NCBI RefSeq assembly: GCF_007827455.1
Contig: NZ_VISM01000001.1
Location: forward strand, 1,899,501 to 1,963,500
Direction of reading: 5' to 3'
DNA: 64,000 bases
DNA from: Lutibacter sp. Hel_I_33_5
GTDB taxonomy: Bacteria > Bacteroidota > Bacteroidia > Flavobacteriales > Flavobacteriaceae
Every line of letters starts with the position of its first letter. Within the stretch, counting starts at the first letter, position 1. Below, piece by piece: positions 16,583-61,680 of the stretch. A model generated the notes under the pieces. The model did not search any database. It was not told the origin of the DNA and was given only the letters and a program-made list of their open reading frames with translations. Both the position numbers and the translations under genes were made by a program.

Positions 16583-17659
16583 ATGATTTGGAAACCATCT
16601 AATTTGCCATATGATAAAGATTTAGAAACCAGGGTTGTTCTTAAAAAGTTAGCTGGGGCTCATCGAGCTTTAGCAGAATTGAAAGGAATTGCACAAACAA
16701 TTCCAAAACAAGAAATTTTAATAAATACTTTAATGTTACAAGAAGCCAAAGATAGTTCTGAGGTTGAAAACATAGTTACGACTCATGATGATCTATATAA
16801 AAGTTCATTGGGGTTAGAAAAATATATTTCTCCTGCAGCTAAAGAAGTTCAAAATTACGTTGCTGCAATTAAGCGTGGGTTTGCCATTGTTTCTGAGAAA
16901 AAAATATTAACAACGAATAACATTATTGAGATTCAAGAAATTCTAGAGAAAAATAAGGCTGGGCTTCGTAAAATCCCTGGAACTAATTTAAAAAATCAAC
17001 AAACAGGTGAAGTGATTTACGAGCCTCCACAAAGTGCAAAAGAAATTAAGGAATTAATGGAGAATCTTGAGTTATTTATTAATGACAATTCACTTATTGA
17101 TTATGATCCTATAGTAAAAATGGCAATAATTCATTTTCAGTTTGAAAGTATTCATCCGTTTTATGATGGTAATGGAAGAACAGGGAGAATTCTTAATATT
17201 TTATATTTAGTCTTAAATGATTTATTGGAAATTCCTATTTTGTATTTGAGTAGATTTATAATAAGTGATAAAATGGCTTATTACCAAAACTTACAAAACG
17301 TTCGGGACAATGAAAGTTGGGAGACTTGGCTTTTATATATGATTTCTGCTGTAGAAGAAACTGCATATGATACTATTCGTTTGGTAAATGATATTAAGAA
17401 AGAAATGATGAAAATGAAAAATATATTACGAAATAATTATAAATTTTATAGTCAGGAATTACTCAATCACTTATTTAAACAACCATACACTAAAATTGAA
17501 TTTTTAAAAAAGGATTTAGGCGTAAGTCGTGTAACCGCTTCGGGGTATTTAAATCGCTTAGCAGAAGATAAGGTTATTTTTAAATTTAAATTAGGGAAAA
17601 CTAATTATTATATAAACATGGCTTTAATGAATGCATTAAGTCCTGAAAATAAAAACTAA
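16583..17659 (+). CDS. fic: Fic-domain AMP-transferase with C-terminal winged helix
   Basis: A 358-residue Fic protein that should transfer AMP (or another NMP) to a protein hydroxyl. The active-site motif HPFYDGNGRTGR is complete at 191-202. Near the N-terminus, S58-SEV-E62-N63 fits the inhibitory-helix motif (S/T)xxxE(G/N), so this looks like a self-inhibited class II Fic. The beta-hairpin flap lies around TGEVIYEPPQ (141-150). Residues about 290-345 resemble a winged helix-turn-helix (KIEFLKKDLGVSRVTASGYLNRL), so the protein could bind its own promoter, which carries two matching palindromes. No antitoxin gene adjoins it. The target is unknown. Confidence 0.9.
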   Translation: MIWKPSNLPYDKDLETRVVLKKLAGAHRALAELKGIAQTIPKQEILINTLMLQEAKDSSEVENIVTTHDDLYKSSLGLEKYISPAAKEVQNYVAAIKRGFAIVSEKKILTTNNIIEIQEILEKNKAGLRKIPGTNLKNQQTGEVIYEPPQSAKEIKELMENLELFINDNSLIDYDPIVKMAIIHFQFESIHPFYDGNGRTGRILNILYLVLNDLLEIPILYLSRFIISDKMAYYQNLQNVRDNESWETWLLYMISAVEETAYDTIRLVNDIKKEMMKMKNILRNNYKFYSQELLNHLFKQPYTKIEFLKKDLGVSRVTASGYLNRLAEDKVIFKFKLGKTNYYINMALMNALSPENKN

Positions 17660-17782: not shown

Positions 17783-18457
17783 ATGGGATTCTTTAAATCT
17801 TCAATCGGAAGAAAATATGCAATGGCACTTTCTGCATTCTTCCTCATGTTTTTCTTATTACAACATTTTGCAATAAACATCACATCAATTTTTCCAGATA
17901 ATGGAGCAACTTTTAACGAACTATCTCATTTTATGGGTAGAAATCCGTTAATTCAGTATGTAATGCAGCCTGTTTTAATTTTCGGTGTTATCTTTCATTT
18001 TGTTATGGGATTTGTACTAGAATTTAAAAATTGGAGTGCACGTAAAGTCAGTTATGCAAAAAACAATGGTGCTGCAAATTCTACTTGGATGAGTAGAAAT
18101 ATGATTTATAGCGGCGCTGCAATTTTAGCATTCATAGTTTTACATTTCATCGATTTTTGGTTTCCAGAAATCAACACAAAATTTATTCAAGGAGATTGGT
18201 CTGGTATGCATAATGGCGAACTTAGATACTTTCATGAATTACAACACAAATTTGTAAATCCGTTAAGAGTGGGTGCTTATATTATTGCATTTGTGTTTTT
18301 AGCACTACACTTATTACACGGTTTTACTTCTGCTTTCCAATCAGTAGGAGCAAATAATAAATACACTAAAGGATTGAAAACGTTTTGTAACATTTACTCA
18401 ATTGGTATTCCGTTAGGATTTATCATTATTGCGTTATTTCATCACTTCAATCATTAA
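17783..18457 (+). CDS. sdhC: Succinate dehydrogenase cytochrome b subunit
   Basis: A 224-residue membrane anchor of complex II (five-helix, single-polypeptide type B as in Bacteroidetes fumarate reductase/succinate dehydrogenase). The opening [27 protein letters not shown] carries the first helix and a haem-ligand-like His. Further His residues lie at HFVMG, LHFID, LHLLHGF and at the end (HHFNH). It quinone-couples the SdhA/SdhB catalytic arm. It is the first gene of the sdh operon, 11 bp before sdhA, with a clear promoter upstream. Confidence 0.92.
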
Positions 18458-18468
18458 TACGAAAAAGT

Positions 18469-20481
18469 ATGGCTTTAGATTCTAAAACTCCAAAAGGTCC
18501 ATTAAAAGATAAATGGACGGATTATAAAAATCACATCAATTTAGTAAATCCTGCTAACAAACGTAATATTGATATTATTGTTGTTGGTACAGGTTTAGCG
18601 GGTGGTTCTGCTTCTGCTACTTTAGCAGAATTAGGGTATAATGTAAAAGCATTTGCTTATCAAGATTCTCCACGTAGAGCGCATTCAATTGCGGCGCAAG
18701 GAGGAATTAACGCAGCAAAAAATTACCAAGGTGATGGAGATTCTGCTTACCGATTATTTTACGATACGGTAAAAGGTGGAGATTATCGCTCACGCGAATC
18801 CAACGTATATAGATTAGCAGAAGTTTCTGCAAATATTATCGATCAATGTGTGGCGCAAGGAGTTCCTTTTGCTCGTGATTATGGTGGATTGTTAGACAAT
18901 CGTTCGTTTGGTGGTGTATTAGTTTCAAGAACTTTTTATGCCAAGGGACAAACAGGTCAGCAATTATTATTAGGAGCGTATTCTGCAATGAATCGTCAAA
19001 TTGCTCGTGGTAAGATTGAAATGTTCAATCGCCATGAAATGTTAGATGTTGTTTTGGTTGATGGAAAAGCACGTGGAATTATTGCTAGAAATTTAGTTAC
19101 AGGAGAGATTGAGCGTCATTCAGCACATGCTGTAGTTATTGCTTCTGGAGGATACGGAAATGTATATTTCTTATCAACTAACGCAATGGGTTCTAACGCA
19201 ACAGCAGCTTGGAAAATTCATAAAAAAGGAGCGTATTTTGCAAATCCTTGTTATACGCAAATTCACCCAACATGTATTCCACGTTCAGGAGATTATCAAT
19301 CTAAATTAACGTTGATGTCAGAATCTCTTAGAAATGATGGACGAATTTGGGTTCCTAAAAATTTAGAAGATGTAAAAGCGATTAGAGAAGGACGTAAAAA
19401 ACCGACTGATTTATCGCCAGATGAAAGAGATTATTATTTAGAAAGACGTTATCCTGCGTTTGGTAATTTAGTACCTCGTGATGTGGCTTCTAGAGCAGCG
19501 AAAGAACGTTGTGATGCTGGTTACGGTGTAAATGCAACTGGTGAAGCAGTGTATTTAGATTTTGCTTCGGCAATTGAACGTTACGGAAAAGAGCAGGCGA
19601 AGATTCAGAATATTTCTAATGCTTCTGCAGATAAAATATACGAATTAGGTCAAGCAATTGTTGAGGCTAAATATGGAAACTTATTCCAGATGTATCACAA
19701 GATTGTAGATCAAGACCCATACAAAACTCCAATGATGATTTATCCAGCGGTTCACTACACAATGGGTGGTGTTTGGGTTGATTATAATTTGATGACTACC
19801 GTTGATGGATTATACTGTTTAGGAGAAGCAAATTTCTCTGATCACGGAGCAAACAGATTAGGAGCATCAGCTTTAATGCAAGGTTTGTCTGACGGATATT
19901 TTGTGTTACCTTATACAATCGGAGATTATTTATCTGATGATATTAGAACAGGAAAAATTCCAACGGATACTAAAGAGTTTGAAGATGCTGAAAATGATGT
20001 TAAAGAACGTTTAGATTTCTTCATCAACAATAAAGGAGAACATTCTGTAGATTATTACCACAAAAAATTAGGAAAAATTATGTGGGAAAAATGTGGAATG
20101 TCTCGTAACGAAAAAGGTTTAAAAGAAGCGATGTCTGAAATTAAAGCTTTACGTGAAGATTTCTGGAAAAACGTAACAGTACCTGGAAGTCAGTCAGAAA
20201 TGAATCCTGAGTTGGAAAAAGCAGGTAGAGTAGCAGATTTCTTAGAATTAGGTGAACTTTTTGCTAAAGATGCGTTGGATAGAAACGAATCTTGTGGAGG
20301 TCATTTTAGAGAAGAATCTGTAGAATTAGACGGTGAACAAGAAGGAGAAGCAAAGCGTAATGATAAAGACTATGCGTATGTTTCTGCTTGGGAATACAAA
20401 GGAGAACCTGCTGATGCAGTTTTACATAAAGAAGAATTAGAATTTAACGATATTGAACTTAAGCAGAGATCTTATAAGTAA
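18469..20481 (+). CDS. sdhA: Succinate dehydrogenase/fumarate reductase flavoprotein subunit
   Basis: A 670-residue catalytic subunit oxidising succinate to fumarate on the cytoplasmic side of the inner membrane. The FAD-binding Rossmann motif is [19 protein letters not shown] (residues about 36-54), and [18 protein letters not shown] contains the region of the covalent FAD histidine. The substrate-binding arginine and histidine region follows ([22 protein letters not shown]). The length is typical of the B-type enzyme. It is followed not by sdhB, as usual, but by a four-helix-bundle ORF inside an inverted-repeat element. Confidence 0.95.
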
Positions 20482-20490
20482 ACTAGAAAT

Positions 20491-20897
20491 TTAGCCAAAA
20501 GGCAAAAGATGGGCAGTATTTCTACATATAAAGATTTATTAATTTGGCAAAAAGGAATTCAAATTGTTAAAGAAGTATATCTAATTTGTAAAGAAATTCC
20601 GAAAGATGAGTTGTATGGTTTACAAAGTCAAATTAAACGATCATCAGTTTCAATACCTTCTAATATAGCAGAAGGTTGGGGTAGAAATTACACCAAAAGT
20701 TATATTAAGTTTTTAAAGTATTCGAGAGGATCTTTATTAGAGTTAGAAACTCAAATTATTATTGCAAAAGAACTAGAATTTATTTCAATCGAAAGTTTTA
20801 ATAAAATTCAAAATTTAATCACAGAAGAAAGTAAAATGTTAAATGCCTTTATAAAATCAGTAGACAAATAACTATTTGCCTTATGACTATTGGCTAA
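20491..20897. mobile_element. Intervening-sequence-like element in the sdh operon
   Basis: An inverted repeat encloses the four-helix-bundle ORF. The left arm is TTAGCCAAAAGGCAAA (20491-20506). The right arm is TTTGCCTT (20875-20882), a 7-nt insertion, then TTGGCTAA (20890-20897). Apart from the insertion the 16-nt arms are perfect complements. The layout (terminal stem plus S23-type ORF) is that of the intervening sequences found in some 23S rRNA genes, here between sdhA and sdhB. Confidence 0.65.
20509..20871 (+). CDS. Four-helix-bundle protein (S23/IVP family)
   Basis: A 120-residue four-helix-bundle protein of the family first seen in 23S rRNA intervening sequences. The hallmark segment IKRSSVSIPSNIAEGWGRN is at residues about 43-61, after YKDLLIWQKGIQIVKEVY. 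The molecular role is unsettled; nucleic-acid binding is suspected for the family. It interrupts the sdhA-sdhB linkage and starts 2 bp inside the left inverted-repeat arm, so it belongs to the element and not to complex II. A paralogue lies at 60250 in the bat operon, sharing the SVSIxSNxAEG core. Confidence 0.88.
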   Translation: MGSISTYKDLLIWQKGIQIVKEVYLICKEIPKDELYGLQSQIKRSSVSIPSNIAEGWGRNYTKSYIKFLKYSRGSLLELETQIIIAKELEFISIESFNKIQNLITEESKMLNAFIKSVDK

Positions 20898-20910: not shown

Positions 20911-21657
20911 ATGAATTTAACCTTAAAGATTTGGCGTCAAAAAAACGCAAGTGATAAAGGAAAAATGGTTGACTATAAGGTAACCGATATTTCTGAACAT
21001 ATGTCTTTCTTAGAGATGATGGATGTATTGAACGAGCAATTAATTAATGCAGGTGATGAACCTGTTGCTTTCGATCATGATTGTAGAGAAGGTATTTGCG
21101 GAATGTGTTCGATGTACATTAACGGGGAAGCTCACGGTCCAGATAGAGGTGTAACAACCTGTCAATTACATATGCGTATGTTTAAAGATGGTGATACAAT
21201 TACCATTGAGCCATTTAGAGCAGCAGCATTTCCAGTAATAAAAGATTTAGTGGTTGATAGAAGTTCTTTTGAAAGAATTCAGCAAGCTGGTGGATATATT
21301 TCTGTAAATACTTCAGGAAATACACAAGATGCGAATGCAATTCCGATTCCGAAAGAAGATGCAGATAAAGCTATGGATGCTGCAACCTGTATTGGATGTG
21401 GAGCTTGTGTTGCTACTTGTAAAAACTCTTCTGCAATGTTATTTGTAGGTGCAAAAGTATCTCAATATGCTTTATTGCCACAAGGACAAGTAGAAGCTAC
21501 AGATAGAGTTTTAAACATGGTTGCACAGATGGATGCAGAAGGTTTTGGAAACTGTACAAATACAGGTGCTTGTGAAGTGGAATGCCCGAAAGGAATTTCT
21601 TTAGAAAACATAGCGCGTATGAATACTGAGTTCTTAAAAGCGAGTTTAAAAGGATAA
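20911..21657 (+). CDS. sdhB: Succinate dehydrogenase iron-sulfur subunit
   Basis: A 248-residue subunit passing electrons from FAD to quinone. The [2Fe-2S] motif is CREGICGMC followed downstream by a fourth Cys (TTCQLH). The [4Fe-4S] and [3Fe-4S] clusters are ligated by [11 protein letters not shown] and by [15 protein letters not shown] used the ATG at 20911 ([10 protein letters not shown]), typical for the family; the frame could open at a TTG at 20890, but that lies within the inverted-repeat arm. It ends the sdh operon before a REP-like repeat and a terminator. Confidence 0.95.
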
Positions 21658-51998: not shown

Positions 51999-52080
51999 GC
52001 TCAAGTGGCGGAATTGGTAGACGCGCTGGATTCAAAATCCAGTTCTTTCGGGAGTGTGGGTTCGATTCCCACCTTGAGTA
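51999..52080 (+). tRNA. tRNA-Leu(CAA)
   Basis: An 82-nt type II tRNA. The acceptor GCTCAAG pairs with CTTGAGT (first pair a G-T wobble), followed by discriminator A at 52080. The D arm is GTGGCGGAATTGGTAGACGC. The anticodon arm CTGGA-TTCAAAA-TCCAG reads CAA. A long variable arm (TTCTTTCGGGAG) and the T arm GTGGG-TTCGATT-CCCAC follow. The CCA end is not encoded, so it must be added post-transcriptionally. Confidence 0.96.
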
Positions 52081-58295: not shown

Positions 58296-59216
58296 GTGAA
58301 AAACCATTTATTATATATACTTTTTTTAGTTGCTTCACTTAGTTTTTCTCAAGAAAAACCAAAAGTGACTATAGCTGTAGACACTACTAATATTAGAATT
58401 GGTGAACAGTTTGAATACACTATTTCTGTTGATGGAACTGATAATGTAATTTTACCAAAACTTAATAACTTAAACAACTTAGAAGTAGTTGATTCTACTA
58501 AAATTGATACCATAAAAAACAGCTTAATTAGAAAATATATTTTAACTGGTTTTGATAGTGGTGCATTTTACATTCCGCAACAACAAGTGTTTATAAAAAA
58601 TCAGGCATATTTAACCGATTCTTTATTAATAAATGTTGCTACAATAGCTGTTGATACTACCAAAATTAAAAAATTTCCTATTAAAGGAATCAAAGGAGAA
58701 CCTTATCAATTTAATGATTTTAAACATTATTTATGGTGGGTTTTAGCAGCATTAGTTATCATTGGATTATTACTTTATTATTTTGTTTTTAGAAAGAAAA
58801 AAGCTGAAGAAGAAATAGAAGTTGTTCCAGACATTCCTCCTTATGATGAAGCAATGCAAAAGTTAAAAGCATTGGATACTAAACTACTTTGGCAAAACAA
58901 TAAGGTTAAAAAATACTATAGTGAGTTAACGGAAATTGTACGTGGATATATTGAGCGTGAACTAAAGATTCCTGCGCTTGAAATTACTACTGATGAAATT
59001 ATTGAAACATTATCAGGTTTTCAAAAAACAGAAACTATAGATACTTCAAAAGAAACCATTAAAAAATTAAAAGGACTATTACAAGAAGCTGATTTAGTAA
59101 AATTTGCGAAATCTAAACCAATGGCTGAAGAAATTGAAGATGATAGAAGAGATGCGGAAAATATTGTCAATAATTTGAAACCAAAAATAATAGAAGAAGA
59201 AAATGAAGTGGAATAA
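58296..59216 (+). CDS. Bat operon membrane protein (BatD-N/DUF4381-like)
   Basis: A 306-residue protein with signal peptide (1-18), a periplasmic Ig-like N-domain (VTIAVDTTNIRIGEQFEYTISV), a single membrane helix near residues 148-170 (LWWVLAALVIIGLLLYYFVF) and a cytoplasmic helical tail (YDEAMQKLKALDTKLLWQNNK). This is the usual gene between DUF58 and batA. GTG at 58296 is the start. The stop lies 14 bp inside the batA gene. Confidence 0.85.
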   Translation: MKNHLLYILFLVASLSFSQEKPKVTIAVDTTNIRIGEQFEYTISVDGTDNVILPKLNNLNNLEVVDSTKIDTIKNSLIRKYILTGFDSGAFYIPQQQVFIKNQAYLTDSLLINVATIAVDTTKIKKFPIKGIKGEPYQFNDFKHYLWWVLAALVIIGLLLYYFVFRKKKAEEEIEVVPDIPPYDEAMQKLKALDTKLLWQNNKVKKYYSELTEIVRGYIERELKIPALEITTDEIIETLSGFQKTETIDTSKETIKKLKGLLQEADLVKFAKSKPMAEEIEDDRRDAENIVNNLKPKIIEEENEVE

Positions 59217-60210
59217 TTTTGAATTTCATAATCCAGAGTTTTTATGGCTTTTAGGAATCATTCCTTTATTAGCGGTATGGTATTTCTTTACCCGTAAAAA
59301 AGATGGAGCAAAATTAACCATTCCAAGTGTTAAAGGATTTTCGGTCAAAAATTCATTTCTATCAAAACTAAAACCTTTTTTATATCTATTAAGACTAGCG
59401 GCATTGGCAGTCTTAATTGTAGCTTTAGCAAGACCAAGAAATGTTTCGGTAAGTAAAAAGACAAAAACTAATAGAGGAATTGATATTGTTATGGCAATAG
59501 ACGTTTCTGCCAGTATGTTAGCAAAAGATTTAAAACCAAATCGACTTGAAGCATTAAAAAAAGTAGCGACAGATTTTGTGAATCGTCGCCCTAATGATAG
59601 AATTGGAATTGTAGTTTACGCCGGAGAAAGTTTTACTCAAACACCAATAACTAGCGATAAAGGAATAGTAAAACGTACAATTTCTGAAATTAAATGGGGT
59701 CAATTAGAAGGAGGAACAGCTATAGGGATGGGCTTAGGATCTGCAGTTAATAGATTAAAAGAAAGTAAAGCAAAAAGTAAAATTATTATTCTTTTAACCG
59801 ATGGCGTAAATAATTCTGGATTTGTAGATCCAAAAACTGCTACAGAATTAGCAAAAGAATTAAGTATTAAAGTATATACAATTGGAATTGGAACAAACGG
59901 AATGGCTCCTTTTCCATGGAGTAGAGATCCAAGAACAGGGAAATTACAATTCAGAAATCAACAGGTAGAAATTGACGAAGCTTTATTAAAACATATAGCA
60001 ACAGAAACCGAAGGAAAGTATTTTAGAGCTACGAATAATACAAAGTTGAAAGATATTTATGATGAAATTGATACGCTAGAAAAAACAAAAATAGAAGAAT
60101 TTAAATACTATAATTATCAAGAAAAATATAGATTACTAGTGTTTTTAGCTGGCGGATTATTGCTGTTAGAGTTTTTATTAAGAAACACTGTATTCAAAAG
60201 TTTTATATAG
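59203..60210 (+). CDS. batA: VWA-domain protein BatA
   Basis: A 335-residue membrane protein. N-terminal residues 10-30 and 55-80 are membrane helices (FLWLLGIIPLLAVWYFF), followed by a VWA domain with MIDAS MAIDVSASMLAKDL (DxSxS) and downstream LTDGVNNSGF. A C-terminal helix (LLVFLAGGLLLLEFLL) anchors it. It should face the periplasm with BatB. The start overlaps the preceding gene by 14 bp. Confidence 0.93.
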   Translation: MKWNNFEFHNPEFLWLLGIIPLLAVWYFFTRKKDGAKLTIPSVKGFSVKNSFLSKLKPFLYLLRLAALAVLIVALARPRNVSVSKKTKTNRGIDIVMAIDVSASMLAKDLKPNRLEALKKVATDFVNRRPNDRIGIVVYAGESFTQTPITSDKGIVKRTISEIKWGQLEGGTAIGMGLGSAVNRLKESKAKSKIIILLTDGVNNSGFVDPKTATELAKELSIKVYTIGIGTNGMAPFPWSRDPRTGKLQFRNQQVEIDEALLKHIATETEGKYFRATNNTKLKDIYDEIDTLEKTKIEEFKYYNYQEKYRLLVFLAGGLLLLEFLLRNTVFKSFI

Positions 60211-60212
60211 TT

Positions 60213-60624
60213 ATTGTTGAAAAGTTAAATTGTTAAAACGTAAAATTGAATGCATACATTTTCATTTGAAAAATTAGAAGTTTGGAAAGAAGCAATTAGC
60301 CTTTCAAAAAACATCTATGGATTAACTGGAAAATTTCCGACATCTGAAAAATTTGGATTAATTAATCAATTAAGAAGAGCATCAGTTTCAATTTCATCTA
60401 ATTTAGCTGAAGGAACATCACGAGCTACTAATAAAGATAAAGCTCATTTTACAACAATATCGTATAGTTCTACGATGGAAGTTTTAAATCAATTAATCCT
60501 TTCTAAAGAATTAAAGTATATTTCTGAAGCAGAATATATCAATTTAAGAACTAGTATTTATAAAATAACAAACATGCTTAATGCTTTGAGAAAAGCACAA
60601 TTAAACAGTTAAACAAAAAACAAT
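60213..60624. mobile_element. Intervening-sequence-like element in the bat operon
   Basis: The left boundary (60213-60238) starts ATTGTTGAAAAGTTAAATTG. The right boundary (60599-60624) is AATTAAACAGTTAAAC followed by AAAAAACAAT. They form an imperfect inverted repeat of about 25 bp, with an exact ATTGTT/AACAAT terminus. They enclose the four-helix ORF. The boundaries are AT-rich and the pairing is weaker than in the sdh copy, so the exact ends are uncertain. Confidence 0.5.
60250..60612 (+). CDS. Four-helix-bundle protein (S23/IVP family)
   Basis: A 120-residue paralogue of the ORF at 20509, sharing the core RRASVSISSNLAEGTSR and an opening FEKLEVWKEAISLSKNIY. Like that copy it sits between two genes that belong together, here batA and batB, 40 bp after batA and 28 bp before batB. 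It forms four predicted amphipathic helices. It has no evident link to Bat function and its gene lies inside the inverted-repeat boundaries. Confidence 0.87.
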   Translation: MHTFSFEKLEVWKEAISLSKNIYGLTGKFPTSEKFGLINQLRRASVSISSNLAEGTSRATNKDKAHFTTISYSSTMEVLNQLILSKELKYISEAEYINLRTSIYKITNMLNALRKAQLNS

Positions 60625-60639
60625 TAAACCATCCAAAGG

Positions 60640-61680
60640 ATGTACAAAATAGAAGAACCAATATATTTTTACTTTTTTGCAATTATCCCTGTGATAATTG
60701 TCATATTTCTGTTGGTTTTATGGTGGAAAAAAAGAGCACAAAAAAAGTTTGCTTCACCAGAATTATTACAGCAATTAGCACCAAATTCATCAACGTTTAA
60801 ATCAGTTTTAAAGTTAGTTTTTTTAATTATTGGTTTATCATTTTTAATACTTTCATTGGTGAATCCAAAAATGGGAACAAAGCTACAAACTGTAAAACGT
60901 GAAGGTGTAGACGTTGTTTTTGCGTTGGATGTTTCTAAAAGCATGTTAGCAGAAGATATTGCGCCAAACCGATTAGAAAAATCGAAACAAATCATTTCTA
61001 AAATCATAGATAAATTAGGTAGCGATAGAGTTGGGGTAATTATTTATGCGGGGAATTCATATCCTCTTTTACCAATTACAACAGATCATGCGGCAGCAAA
61101 AATGTTTTTGCAAAATGCGAATCCAGACATGGTTTCAAGCCAAGGAACAGCAATAAACGAAGCCTTAGAATTGGCTAAAACATATTATAATAATGATGAG
61201 CAAACCAATCGTTTTTTAATCATTATTTCTGATGGAGAAGATCATCAAGAAGAAACAAAACAAGTTGCTCAGAATATTGCTAACGAAGGCATAAAAGTTT
61301 ATACTATTGGTGTTGGAACAGAAAGTGGTGGTCCAATTCCAATGAAATTAAACGGTTCTTTAATCGGTTATAAAAAGGATAGAAAGGGTGAAACGGTAAT
61401 CACGAAAAGGAAACCTGATGTTTTACAAGGAATTGCAGATGCCGCAAACGGAAATTACATTGACGGAAACAAAACAGATAATCCAGTAAAAACTATTGAA
61501 GGAATTATTACGAATGCACAAAAAAGTGAATTTGAAACAAAACAATTTTCGGATTATAAAGATCAATTTCAATGGTTTATAGGAATAGGAATATTGTTTT
61601 TAGTGTTAGATATTTTCTTGTTTGACAAGAAAACTAAATGGCTACGGAAAGTTGATTTATTTAACGAAGAAAAGAAATAA
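60640..61680 (+). CDS. batB: VWA-domain protein BatB
   Basis: A 346-residue relative of BatA. Membrane helices near residues 8-28 and 58-77, then a VWA domain with MIDAS FALDVSKSMLAED and LIIISDGEDHQEET, and a C-terminal helix (FQWFIGIGILFLVLDIFLF). It probably works with BatA and the TPR protein BatC. The start at 60640 follows the four-helix ORF by 27 bp and the end is next to batC. Confidence 0.93.
   Translation: MYKIEEPIYFYFFAIIPVIIVIFLLVLWWKKRAQKKFASPELLQQLAPNSSTFKSVLKLVFLIIGLSFLILSLVNPKMGTKLQTVKREGVDVVFALDVSKSMLAEDIAPNRLEKSKQIISKIIDKLGSDRVGVIIYAGNSYPLLPITTDHAAAKMFLQNANPDMVSSQGTAINEALELAKTYYNNDEQTNRFLIIISDGEDHQEETKQVAQNIANEGIKVYTIGVGTESGGPIPMKLNGSLIGYKKDRKGETVITKRKPDVLQGIADAANGNYIDGNKTDNPVKTIEGIITNAQKSEFETKQFSDYKDQFQWFIGIGILFLVLDIFLFDKKTKWLRKVDLFNEEKK

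Follow-up and report, generated by a model that had tools for sequence, protein, structure and literature searches.

The sdh operon of Lutibacter sp. Hel_I_33_5 contains a small block between the genes for its flavoprotein and iron-sulfur subunits (20491..20897, + strand; coordinates refer to the window, i.e. the whole 64,000-nt stretch of DNA that was analysed). Judged from comparison with the same junction in related genomes, this block is almost certainly an insertion and a cohesive element, and it is best read as a promoterless, intercistronic relative of the 23S rRNA intervening sequences (IVS). It probably belongs to a widespread group of small intercistronic elements that consist of degenerate 7–8-nt inverted arms around an S23 open reading frame (ORF) and that lie in sense orientation within operons. 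The initial annotation of this DNA had likewise proposed an inserted IVS-like element, a proposal borne out by bare sites in 36 of 49 genomes, by the membership of the ORF in the S23 family and by the inverted flanks that are common around such ORFs. Two features go beyond that annotation: the arms differ between elements, being built of degenerate 7–8-nt units, and the family is large, occupying many operon junctions and including ORF-less forms.

Layout of the element and its protein

The operon starts with the gene for the membrane subunit of succinate dehydrogenase, which we take to be sdhC (17783..18457), followed by the presumed sdhA for the flavoprotein subunit (18469..20481), directly upstream of the element, and the presumed sdhB for the iron-sulfur subunit (20911..21657), downstream of it, all on the + strand. 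These names are presumed from sequence and gene order; the positions come from the ORF listing, supplemented by tblastn against relatives for sdhA and by comparison with relatives for sdhB. The listing opens sdhB at a TTG at 20890, inside the right arm, whereas the ATG at 20911 fits the alignment with relatives. The spacer between sdhA and sdhB amounts to 432 nt, with the sdhA stop codon counted in. Just upstream of sdhC sits an ORF (16583-17659) carrying HPFYDGNGRTGR, which we take to resemble a Fic motif.

The left arm, TTAGCCAA-AAGGCAAA (20491..20506, +; 16 nt or about two ~7-nt units), was located by inverted-repeat search and folding. It is the perfect complement of the two half-arms that make up the right arm (20875..20897, +), namely TTTGCCTT (20875-20882) and TTGGCTAA (20890-20897), which are set apart by 7 nt (20883-20889), as many as one repeat unit contains. 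The coordinates of the block, its 16-nt inverted arms and the 7-nt insertion on the right side, as first annotated, proved exact on re-examination; read as ungapped inverted repeats, the arms are reported by the repeat search as 18 nt (83%) and 15 nt (87%). Against dinucleotide shuffles of the 80-nt flanks the arm pair scores 15.5 compared to 10.6 (z 2.8, p 0.02), and taken alone it is only modestly significant. Over what are very short stretches, identity within the arms at lags 7-8 is 0.47-0.50 on the left and 0.48 and 0.43 on the right, compared to 0.21-0.33 at lags 5, 6 and 9. In two relatives (L208 and L209) the arms are, by eye, of the same type as in the window element with a changed content of units.

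At the RNA level, the support for a stem is weak. A 433-nt RNA folds with a z of -1.7 relative to shuffles, 5 of 100 of which fold equally well, and the arms are paired in both the MFE and the centroid structures. Among six orthologous ORF-less sdh hairpins nearly all pairs are invariant; one of the 22 pairs is changed on both sides, and the covariation term is slightly unfavourable. The neighbours of the block are sdhA and sdhB and not a 16S or 23S rRNA gene; at gathering scores, Rfam yields a single hit in the window, a tRNA (51999-52080), and no group I or group II intron.

In agreement with the annotation that the block holds nothing but an S23/four-helix-bundle ORF, a single ORF of at least 60 aa is found inside it (20509..20871, +; 120 aa). 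Its product matches the 23S_rRNA_IVP family PF05635 (E=1.5e-38, 131.7 bits at a curated cut-off of 33.8) and the four helix bundle protein family TIGR02436 (E=3.1e-37), while its score for the Avd equivalog NF033474 (35.1 bits) falls below the cut-off of 80. The AlphaFold model consists of four helices with a mean pLDDT of 96.3, and the best Foldseek matches are 2GSC (TM 0.92), 2RLD (0.82), Avd (4DWL, 0.78) and the ribonucleoprotein of a diversity-generating retroelement (DGR; 8UBE, 0.78), with further matches among structures of DGR reverse-transcriptase complexes (8UBB, 8UB7). The S23 protein is kept under purifying selection: where it can be estimated, dN/dS is 0.03-0.25 (pairs of intact ORFs at 70-99% identity, with synonymous sites near saturation) and amounts to 0.06 between the window ORF and that of L208. 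Internal stops are present in 18 of the 114 S23 matches from the window genome and its relatives. In 48 of 58 genomes of the genus, PF05635 is matched once or more at E<=1e-5; we know of no assigned role for genes annotated as 'four helix bundle protein'.

Flanks and junctions across the S23 family

The surroundings of S23 ORFs were analysed in two sets. The first, obtained by genome searches, comprises 79 elements out of 114 matches, with the sdh element of another genome (L068) taken in separately, and its flank statistics refer to 74 elements. The second consists of named records, the best 80 of 586 relatives in which the motif SIPSNIAE occurs, 78 of which entered the flank statistics; it is biased towards S23s like that of the window, because the motif was picked from our own alignment. 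On the whole, S23 flanks are inverted, with a period of 7-8 nt, and in this they differ from the flanks of control genes. Compared to dinucleotide shuffles of the 80-nt flanks, inversion is significant (p<0.05) at 44 of the 74 ORFs and not significant (p>=0.05) at the other 30, and the mean inverted-repeat (IR) score of the 74 is 15.9 for their own partners compared to 10.9 for swapped ones. An IR z above 2 is reached by 58% of the 74 elements and 60% of the 78 named records, compared to 10% of 48 control genes. Furthermore, flank identity at lag 7 is 0.400 in the 74 elements versus 0.312 in shuffles, with an excess also at lags 8, 14, 15, 16 and 21; it is 0.390 in the 78 named records and 0.327, with no peak, in 48 other codirectional genes of two genomes (G013 and the window genome, G000). 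One element (L026) has direct instead of inverted arms (direct score 36, IR 10). It is through these family-wide statistics that the arms of the window element rise above chance.

The S23 ORF lies in sense between co-directional genes in 140 of the 150 elements with both neighbours resolved (159 elements in total); this arrangement is seen for 73 of 73 in the genome-search set and for 67 of 77 among the named records. Neighbours were assigned after dropping ORFs that overlap longer ones, a cruder rule giving 68 of 73 in the genome-search set. Since co-directional spacers account for 298 of 452 in two scanned segments, a sense position is expected at a frequency of ~0.33, against which the orientation was tested by a binomial test whose rows are not independent. 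On their upstream side, the 140 elements have a median gap of 52.5 nt to the next gene, and on their downstream side one of 46.5 nt. NCBIfam gives a name to one or both of the neighbours at fadA|acyl-CoA dehydrogenase, hmgA-like|hppD, batA-like|batB-like, gmk|nadD and ffh|folD, as well as at an RND adaptor|permease pair and at the neighbours of rlmD and nadC; several of these names come from matches below the curated cut-off and some from fragments, and the names sdhA|sdhB and fadB|fadA are in part presumed. One fad operon (G034:C1:1211508-1215973) holds two different S23 elements (L021 and L108), one on either side of the thiolase gene.

A second S23 ORF with the same layout is present in the window itself (60250..60612, +), between a batA-like VWA gene upstream (59203..60210, +) and a batB-like VWA gene downstream (60640..61680, +), both named from matches below the curated cut-off. 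By eye, the right arm of this element (L003) already starts within the final codons of the ORF, and the 80-nt flanks outside the ORF carry no IR signal (z -0.6).

Comparison with relatives shows how these junctions vary. sdhB was found in 52 of the 58 genus genomes and the sdhA|sdhB spacer was read in 49 of them (G059, G004 and G014 being left out). It measures 9-25 nt in 36 genomes, 74-87 nt in ten, 166 nt in one and more than 400 nt in two, with no spacer of 26-73 nt in any of the 49; the two longest, in the window genome and in G026, hold an S23 ORF. The empty site for which the initial annotation suggested searching is thus present, and a state in which all relatives carry the ORF without arms was not encountered. 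The 11 ORF-less spacers (74-166 nt) contain ~7-8-nt repeats. Seven of them were folded, the other four being near copies of one among these seven, with MFE z values between -5.2 and -1.0; six of the seven show an identity of 0.48-0.68 at lag 7, and the remaining one shows an identity of 0.49 at lag 8. The batA|batB spacer, read at 30 loci from 56 genomes with a match, is 3-16 nt long at 14 loci, 17-69 nt at four, 70-170 nt at four and more than 400 nt, with an S23, at eight. Three of the four spacers of 70-170 nt have a period of 7-8 nt (MFE z -1.1 to -2.3). That one and the same junction can be bare, hold an ORF-less spacer or carry an S23 ORF indicates that the block is an insertion.

The ORF-less spacers may have an origin separate from that of the S23 elements, as the ORF-less spacer L049 bears no resemblance to the arms of its S23-bearing tree neighbour L208 (scores 8 and 9). 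Occupancy of the sdh junction is not significantly associated with the S23 count of the genome (p 0.18), genomes without S23 making up none of the 13 occupied and six of the 36 bare ones. In G026 (L068, G026:C9:89500-96500), a second, partial sdhB match (residues 168-246) lies ~3 kb from the S23-bearing sdh junction, which suggests a local duplication.

Descent, mobility and rival explanations

Among the best 80 of 586 SIPSNIAE relatives, an S23 is situated at an sdhA|sdhB junction at 17 loci (at one of these, L275, only the sdhA end is available), and the hosts are Polaribacter, Arenibacter, Winogradskyella, Capnocytophaga, Dysgonomonas, Parabacteroides and uncultured Bacteroidota. Arenibacter aquaticus (L209) and Winogradskyella ursingii (L216) are among the carriers at this junction. 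In the S23 tree (68 rows, 11 recurrent junctions), junction labels change 11 times, the minimum being 10, compared to 44.3 times when shuffled. The gmk|nadD elements are nested beside those at sdhA|sdhB, and a distant second lineage (L068, L123) is also found at sdhA|sdhB in this tree, which is built from few columns and in which long branches meet. Vertical descent with many losses can be another source of the junction fidelity of S23 lineages. The sdh tree includes 29 S23-less genomes, with 18 further ones left out, and the S23 state changes at least seven times on it. Furthermore, the S23s of the window, L208 and L209 group together (99*), with their sdh genes dispersed among S23-less genomes.

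The linkage between arms and ORF was assessed by permutation of arm similarities in 132 of the 159 elements. For S23s with an identity of at least 0.6 and unrelated neighbours (107 pairs), arm similarity is 25.5 compared to 18.3, a value reached in 0 of 5000 permutations; at an identity of at least 0.5 it is 19.1 compared to 18.3 (68 of 5000), and over all different-site pairs it is uncorrelated with S23 identity (Spearman -0.018). Because S23s that are at least 60% alike have similar arms even where their junctions are unrelated, arms and ORF behave as a unit in this range, while the small excess at 0.5 and its absence over all pairs point to a faster turnover of the arms than of the ORF. Arm similarity of this kind exists, for example, between hmgA-like|hppD and fadA|acyl-CoA dehydrogenase, and between sdhA|sdhB and gmk|nadD. 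The arm type GGCACAAAGG / CCTTTGTGCC accompanies related S23s (L246, L256, L248, L262) in records labelled Nitrospirae, Desulfobacteraceae and, in part, Lutibacter, of which the Nitrospirae and Desulfobacteraceae records are metagenome bins that may be contaminated.

A search for mobility enzymes at E<=1e-5 in the window genome gave no match to the reverse transcriptase family RVT_1 (PF00078) and none to the Y1 transposase family Y1_Tnp (PF01797). A need for either enzyme in trans was rejected, as neither is found in this genome. The initial annotation had also proposed looking for the same 16-nt arms around other four-helix ORFs of the genome, an expectation that failed: the exact pattern occurs only at the sdh element, and with at most one mismatch it is found at 22 places (13 forward and 9 reverse) versus 39 for the reversed control, so that the arm sequence was discarded as a signature of the family.

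Dispersed ORF-less elements are only suggested by the sequence scans. These covered 400 kb of G013 and 463.5 kb of the window genome (G000) for repeats, where a strict threshold was too stringent. When it was relaxed, lag 7 was not more prominent than other lags (3/3 spacers in G013/G000 at lag 7, 4/4 at lag 8 and 5/3 at lag 14); all six lag-7 spacers are co-directional. A filter on composition and period retained six sense, no antisense and two other spacers in G013 (3.0 expected) and two sense, no antisense and one other in G000 (1.4 expected). Hairpin scoring for ORF-less elements is confounded with terminators. A near-perfect 7-nt array (CTAACAC...) in a co-directional spacer of the window genome (G000:C1 ~2103778-2104121) is possibly a freshly expanded arm-type repeat.

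Several other explanations of the block were weighed against the element proposed here. It is improbable that S23 is an accessory gene of the operon, i.e. a resident regulator or chaperone that is inherited vertically and often lost, with the repeats arising as local slippage products or acting as mRNA stabilisers. Such a gene would agree with the purifying selection on S23, with S23 lineages that stay at one junction across Flavobacteriia and Bacteroidales and with a sense orientation that is often found between functionally coupled genes. However, alike S23s with alike arms recur at unrelated junctions, and sdhA|sdhB is occupied by two distant S23 lineages (L068/L123 versus the rest, subject to the long-branch warning). 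The grouping of the S23s of the window, L208 and L209, set against the scatter of their sdh genes among S23-less genomes, and the internal stops in 18 of 114 matches likewise speak against a resident gene. That an ordinary small gene happens to lie between fortuitous inverted repeats is hardly credible: the p of ~0.02 for the single arm pair would leave room for chance, but the arms, periodicity and orientation of the whole family compared to controls and the bare spacers of relatives do not.

It is quite improbable that the block is a non-autonomous DNA element of the MITE or REPIN type, with a repeat hairpin mobilised as DNA by a transposase acting in trans and S23 merely carried along. ORF-less hairpin relatives at many places would fit it, one such hairpin as query giving 12 to 43 matches per genome at E<=10 in 11 of 11 genomes, many of them short and weak, and so would the correlation between S23 and Y1_Tnp counts over the 58 genus genomes (rho 0.57, p 2e-6; 0.40 after correction for genome size). 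It is contradicted by the absence of PF01797 from the window genome, by the seven of 32 genomes with at least three S23 matches in which neither Y1_Tnp nor RVT_1 was counted, by an arm sequence that does not recur in the window genome and by a sense bias that is not like DNA insertion. Target-site duplication scores of at least 8 occur at 8 of 107 junctions compared to 5.5 expected, which gives no clear sign of a duplication. The sense bias would suit a retro-element in which a reverse transcriptase acting in trans copies the RNA of S23, in the manner of DGR retrohoming and with S23 as an Avd-like cofactor, as would the fold matches of S23 to Avd alone (4DWL) and within the DGR complex (8UBE, 8UBB, 8UB7). 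This is nevertheless very unlikely, as RVT_1 is absent (E<=1e-5) from 17 of the 32 genomes with at least three S23 matches, the window genome included, and the counts of RVT_1 and S23 are uncorrelated (rho 0.15, p 0.26).

Proposed mode of life and relation to known systems

As an intercistronic relative of the IVS, the element would have no promoter of its own and S23 would be expressed by read-through of the host operon, a step proposed in part from the rRNA IVS. A sense-only life on read-through transcription is likely. In the mRNA, base pairing between the arms would form a stem that encloses the S23 frame, as in the 23S rRNA IVS, and RNase III, a double-strand RNase, would cut this stem and leave sdhA and sdhB on separate messages; with the two genes translated from separate pieces, little harm to the host would result. 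By analogy, processing at the stem has somewhat less than an even chance. S23, a relative of Avd with a pentamer-type fold, would bind the arm repeats or the stem and thereby serve the spread of the element. The Avd-like fold makes RNA binding by S23 likely, and that S23 binds its own arms is a rather doubtful guess drawn from the co-diversification of arms and ORFs.

These elements can be combined into a joint reading, unlikely as a whole, in which S23 cassettes form a distinct, operon-only class of mobile elements that works at the RNA level. Pentameric S23 would recognise the 7-8-nt units in the arms of its own cassette, each subunit perhaps contacting one unit, would cap the S23 segment or release it from the polycistronic mRNA and would carry the cassette, in sense only, to other gaps and phyla without a transposase or reverse transcriptase of its own. 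Mutual recognition would then cause arm and S23 types to co-diversify, and the rRNA IVS would be a small, specialised branch.

It seems that the S23 cassettes make up a family of mobile elements that reside in operons and have so far been overlooked. In the mainly open-access literature, no report among the matches listed ties S23 ORFs to intercistronic inverted repeats. According to one study, 18 PF05635 genes lie in cas loci, one of them between cmr3 and cmr2 (PMC3936711), and a table in another places gmk / four helix bundle / nadD among the phage elements of Flavobacterium columnare (PMC5524665). If these S23s are intercistronic elements, papers that read them as functional partners of their neighbours need revisiting. 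The role of the S23 ORF in rRNA IVS also becomes testable in culturable organisms, outside the essential rRNA. Furthermore, conserved operons such as sdh, fad, hmgA-hppD and batAB can be interrupted, empty sites in relatives being on record here for sdh and batAB only.

REPIN/RAYT miniature elements are small intergenic hairpins dispersed in the genome. The S23 elements differ from them by the lack of a Y1 transposase in the window genome, by arms that vary between elements, by their ORF and by the sense bias. The 7-nt intergenic repeats of the TAACTGA type, found together with other heptamers in Beggiatoaceae, cyanobacteria and some Bacteroidetes, are similar in length and location, but they are mostly direct copies of one heptamer near start codons (PMC4679880); the terms 'S23', 'four helix' and 'intervening' are absent from the main text of that paper (PMC4679880). 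PF05635 proteins have been described as resembling Avd of diversity-generating retroelements (PMC10053308), a likeness of fold that is not accompanied by a reverse transcriptase in the window genome.

Insertions in the rRNA genes of CPR bacteria come closer. Some encode a 23S_rRNA_IVP protein, and ORF-less forms occur at the same sites (PMC11270868), so that they share with the sdh-type elements ORF-bearing and ORF-less states at one site, a scattered distribution over the host tree and some S23 ORFs. The CPR insertions are situated in 16S and 23S rRNA genes, however, and their annotated ORFs are mostly homing endonucleases (PMC11270868). The IVS of Coxiella is a 428-nt element with a terminal inverted-repeat stem around one S23 ORF, sporadic in occurrence and presumed to be acquired horizontally; it is cut by RNase III in vitro, and its S23 protein was suggested not to be made in vivo (PMC4990558). 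Small size, terminal inverted repeats around an S23 ORF, sporadic presence and a presumed acquisition by horizontal transfer are common to the rRNA IVS and the sdh element. In contrast to the former, the sdh element lies between protein genes, has arms of 7-8-nt repeats and belongs to a family found at many junctions, where ORF-less spacers also occur; sdh-type S23 is under purifying selection, and cutting by RNase III, putative for the sdh element, is on record in vitro for that of Coxiella. By layout the sdh element thus corresponds to an IVS, with an RNase III step that would be carried over by analogy, while by location it is not an rRNA IVS.
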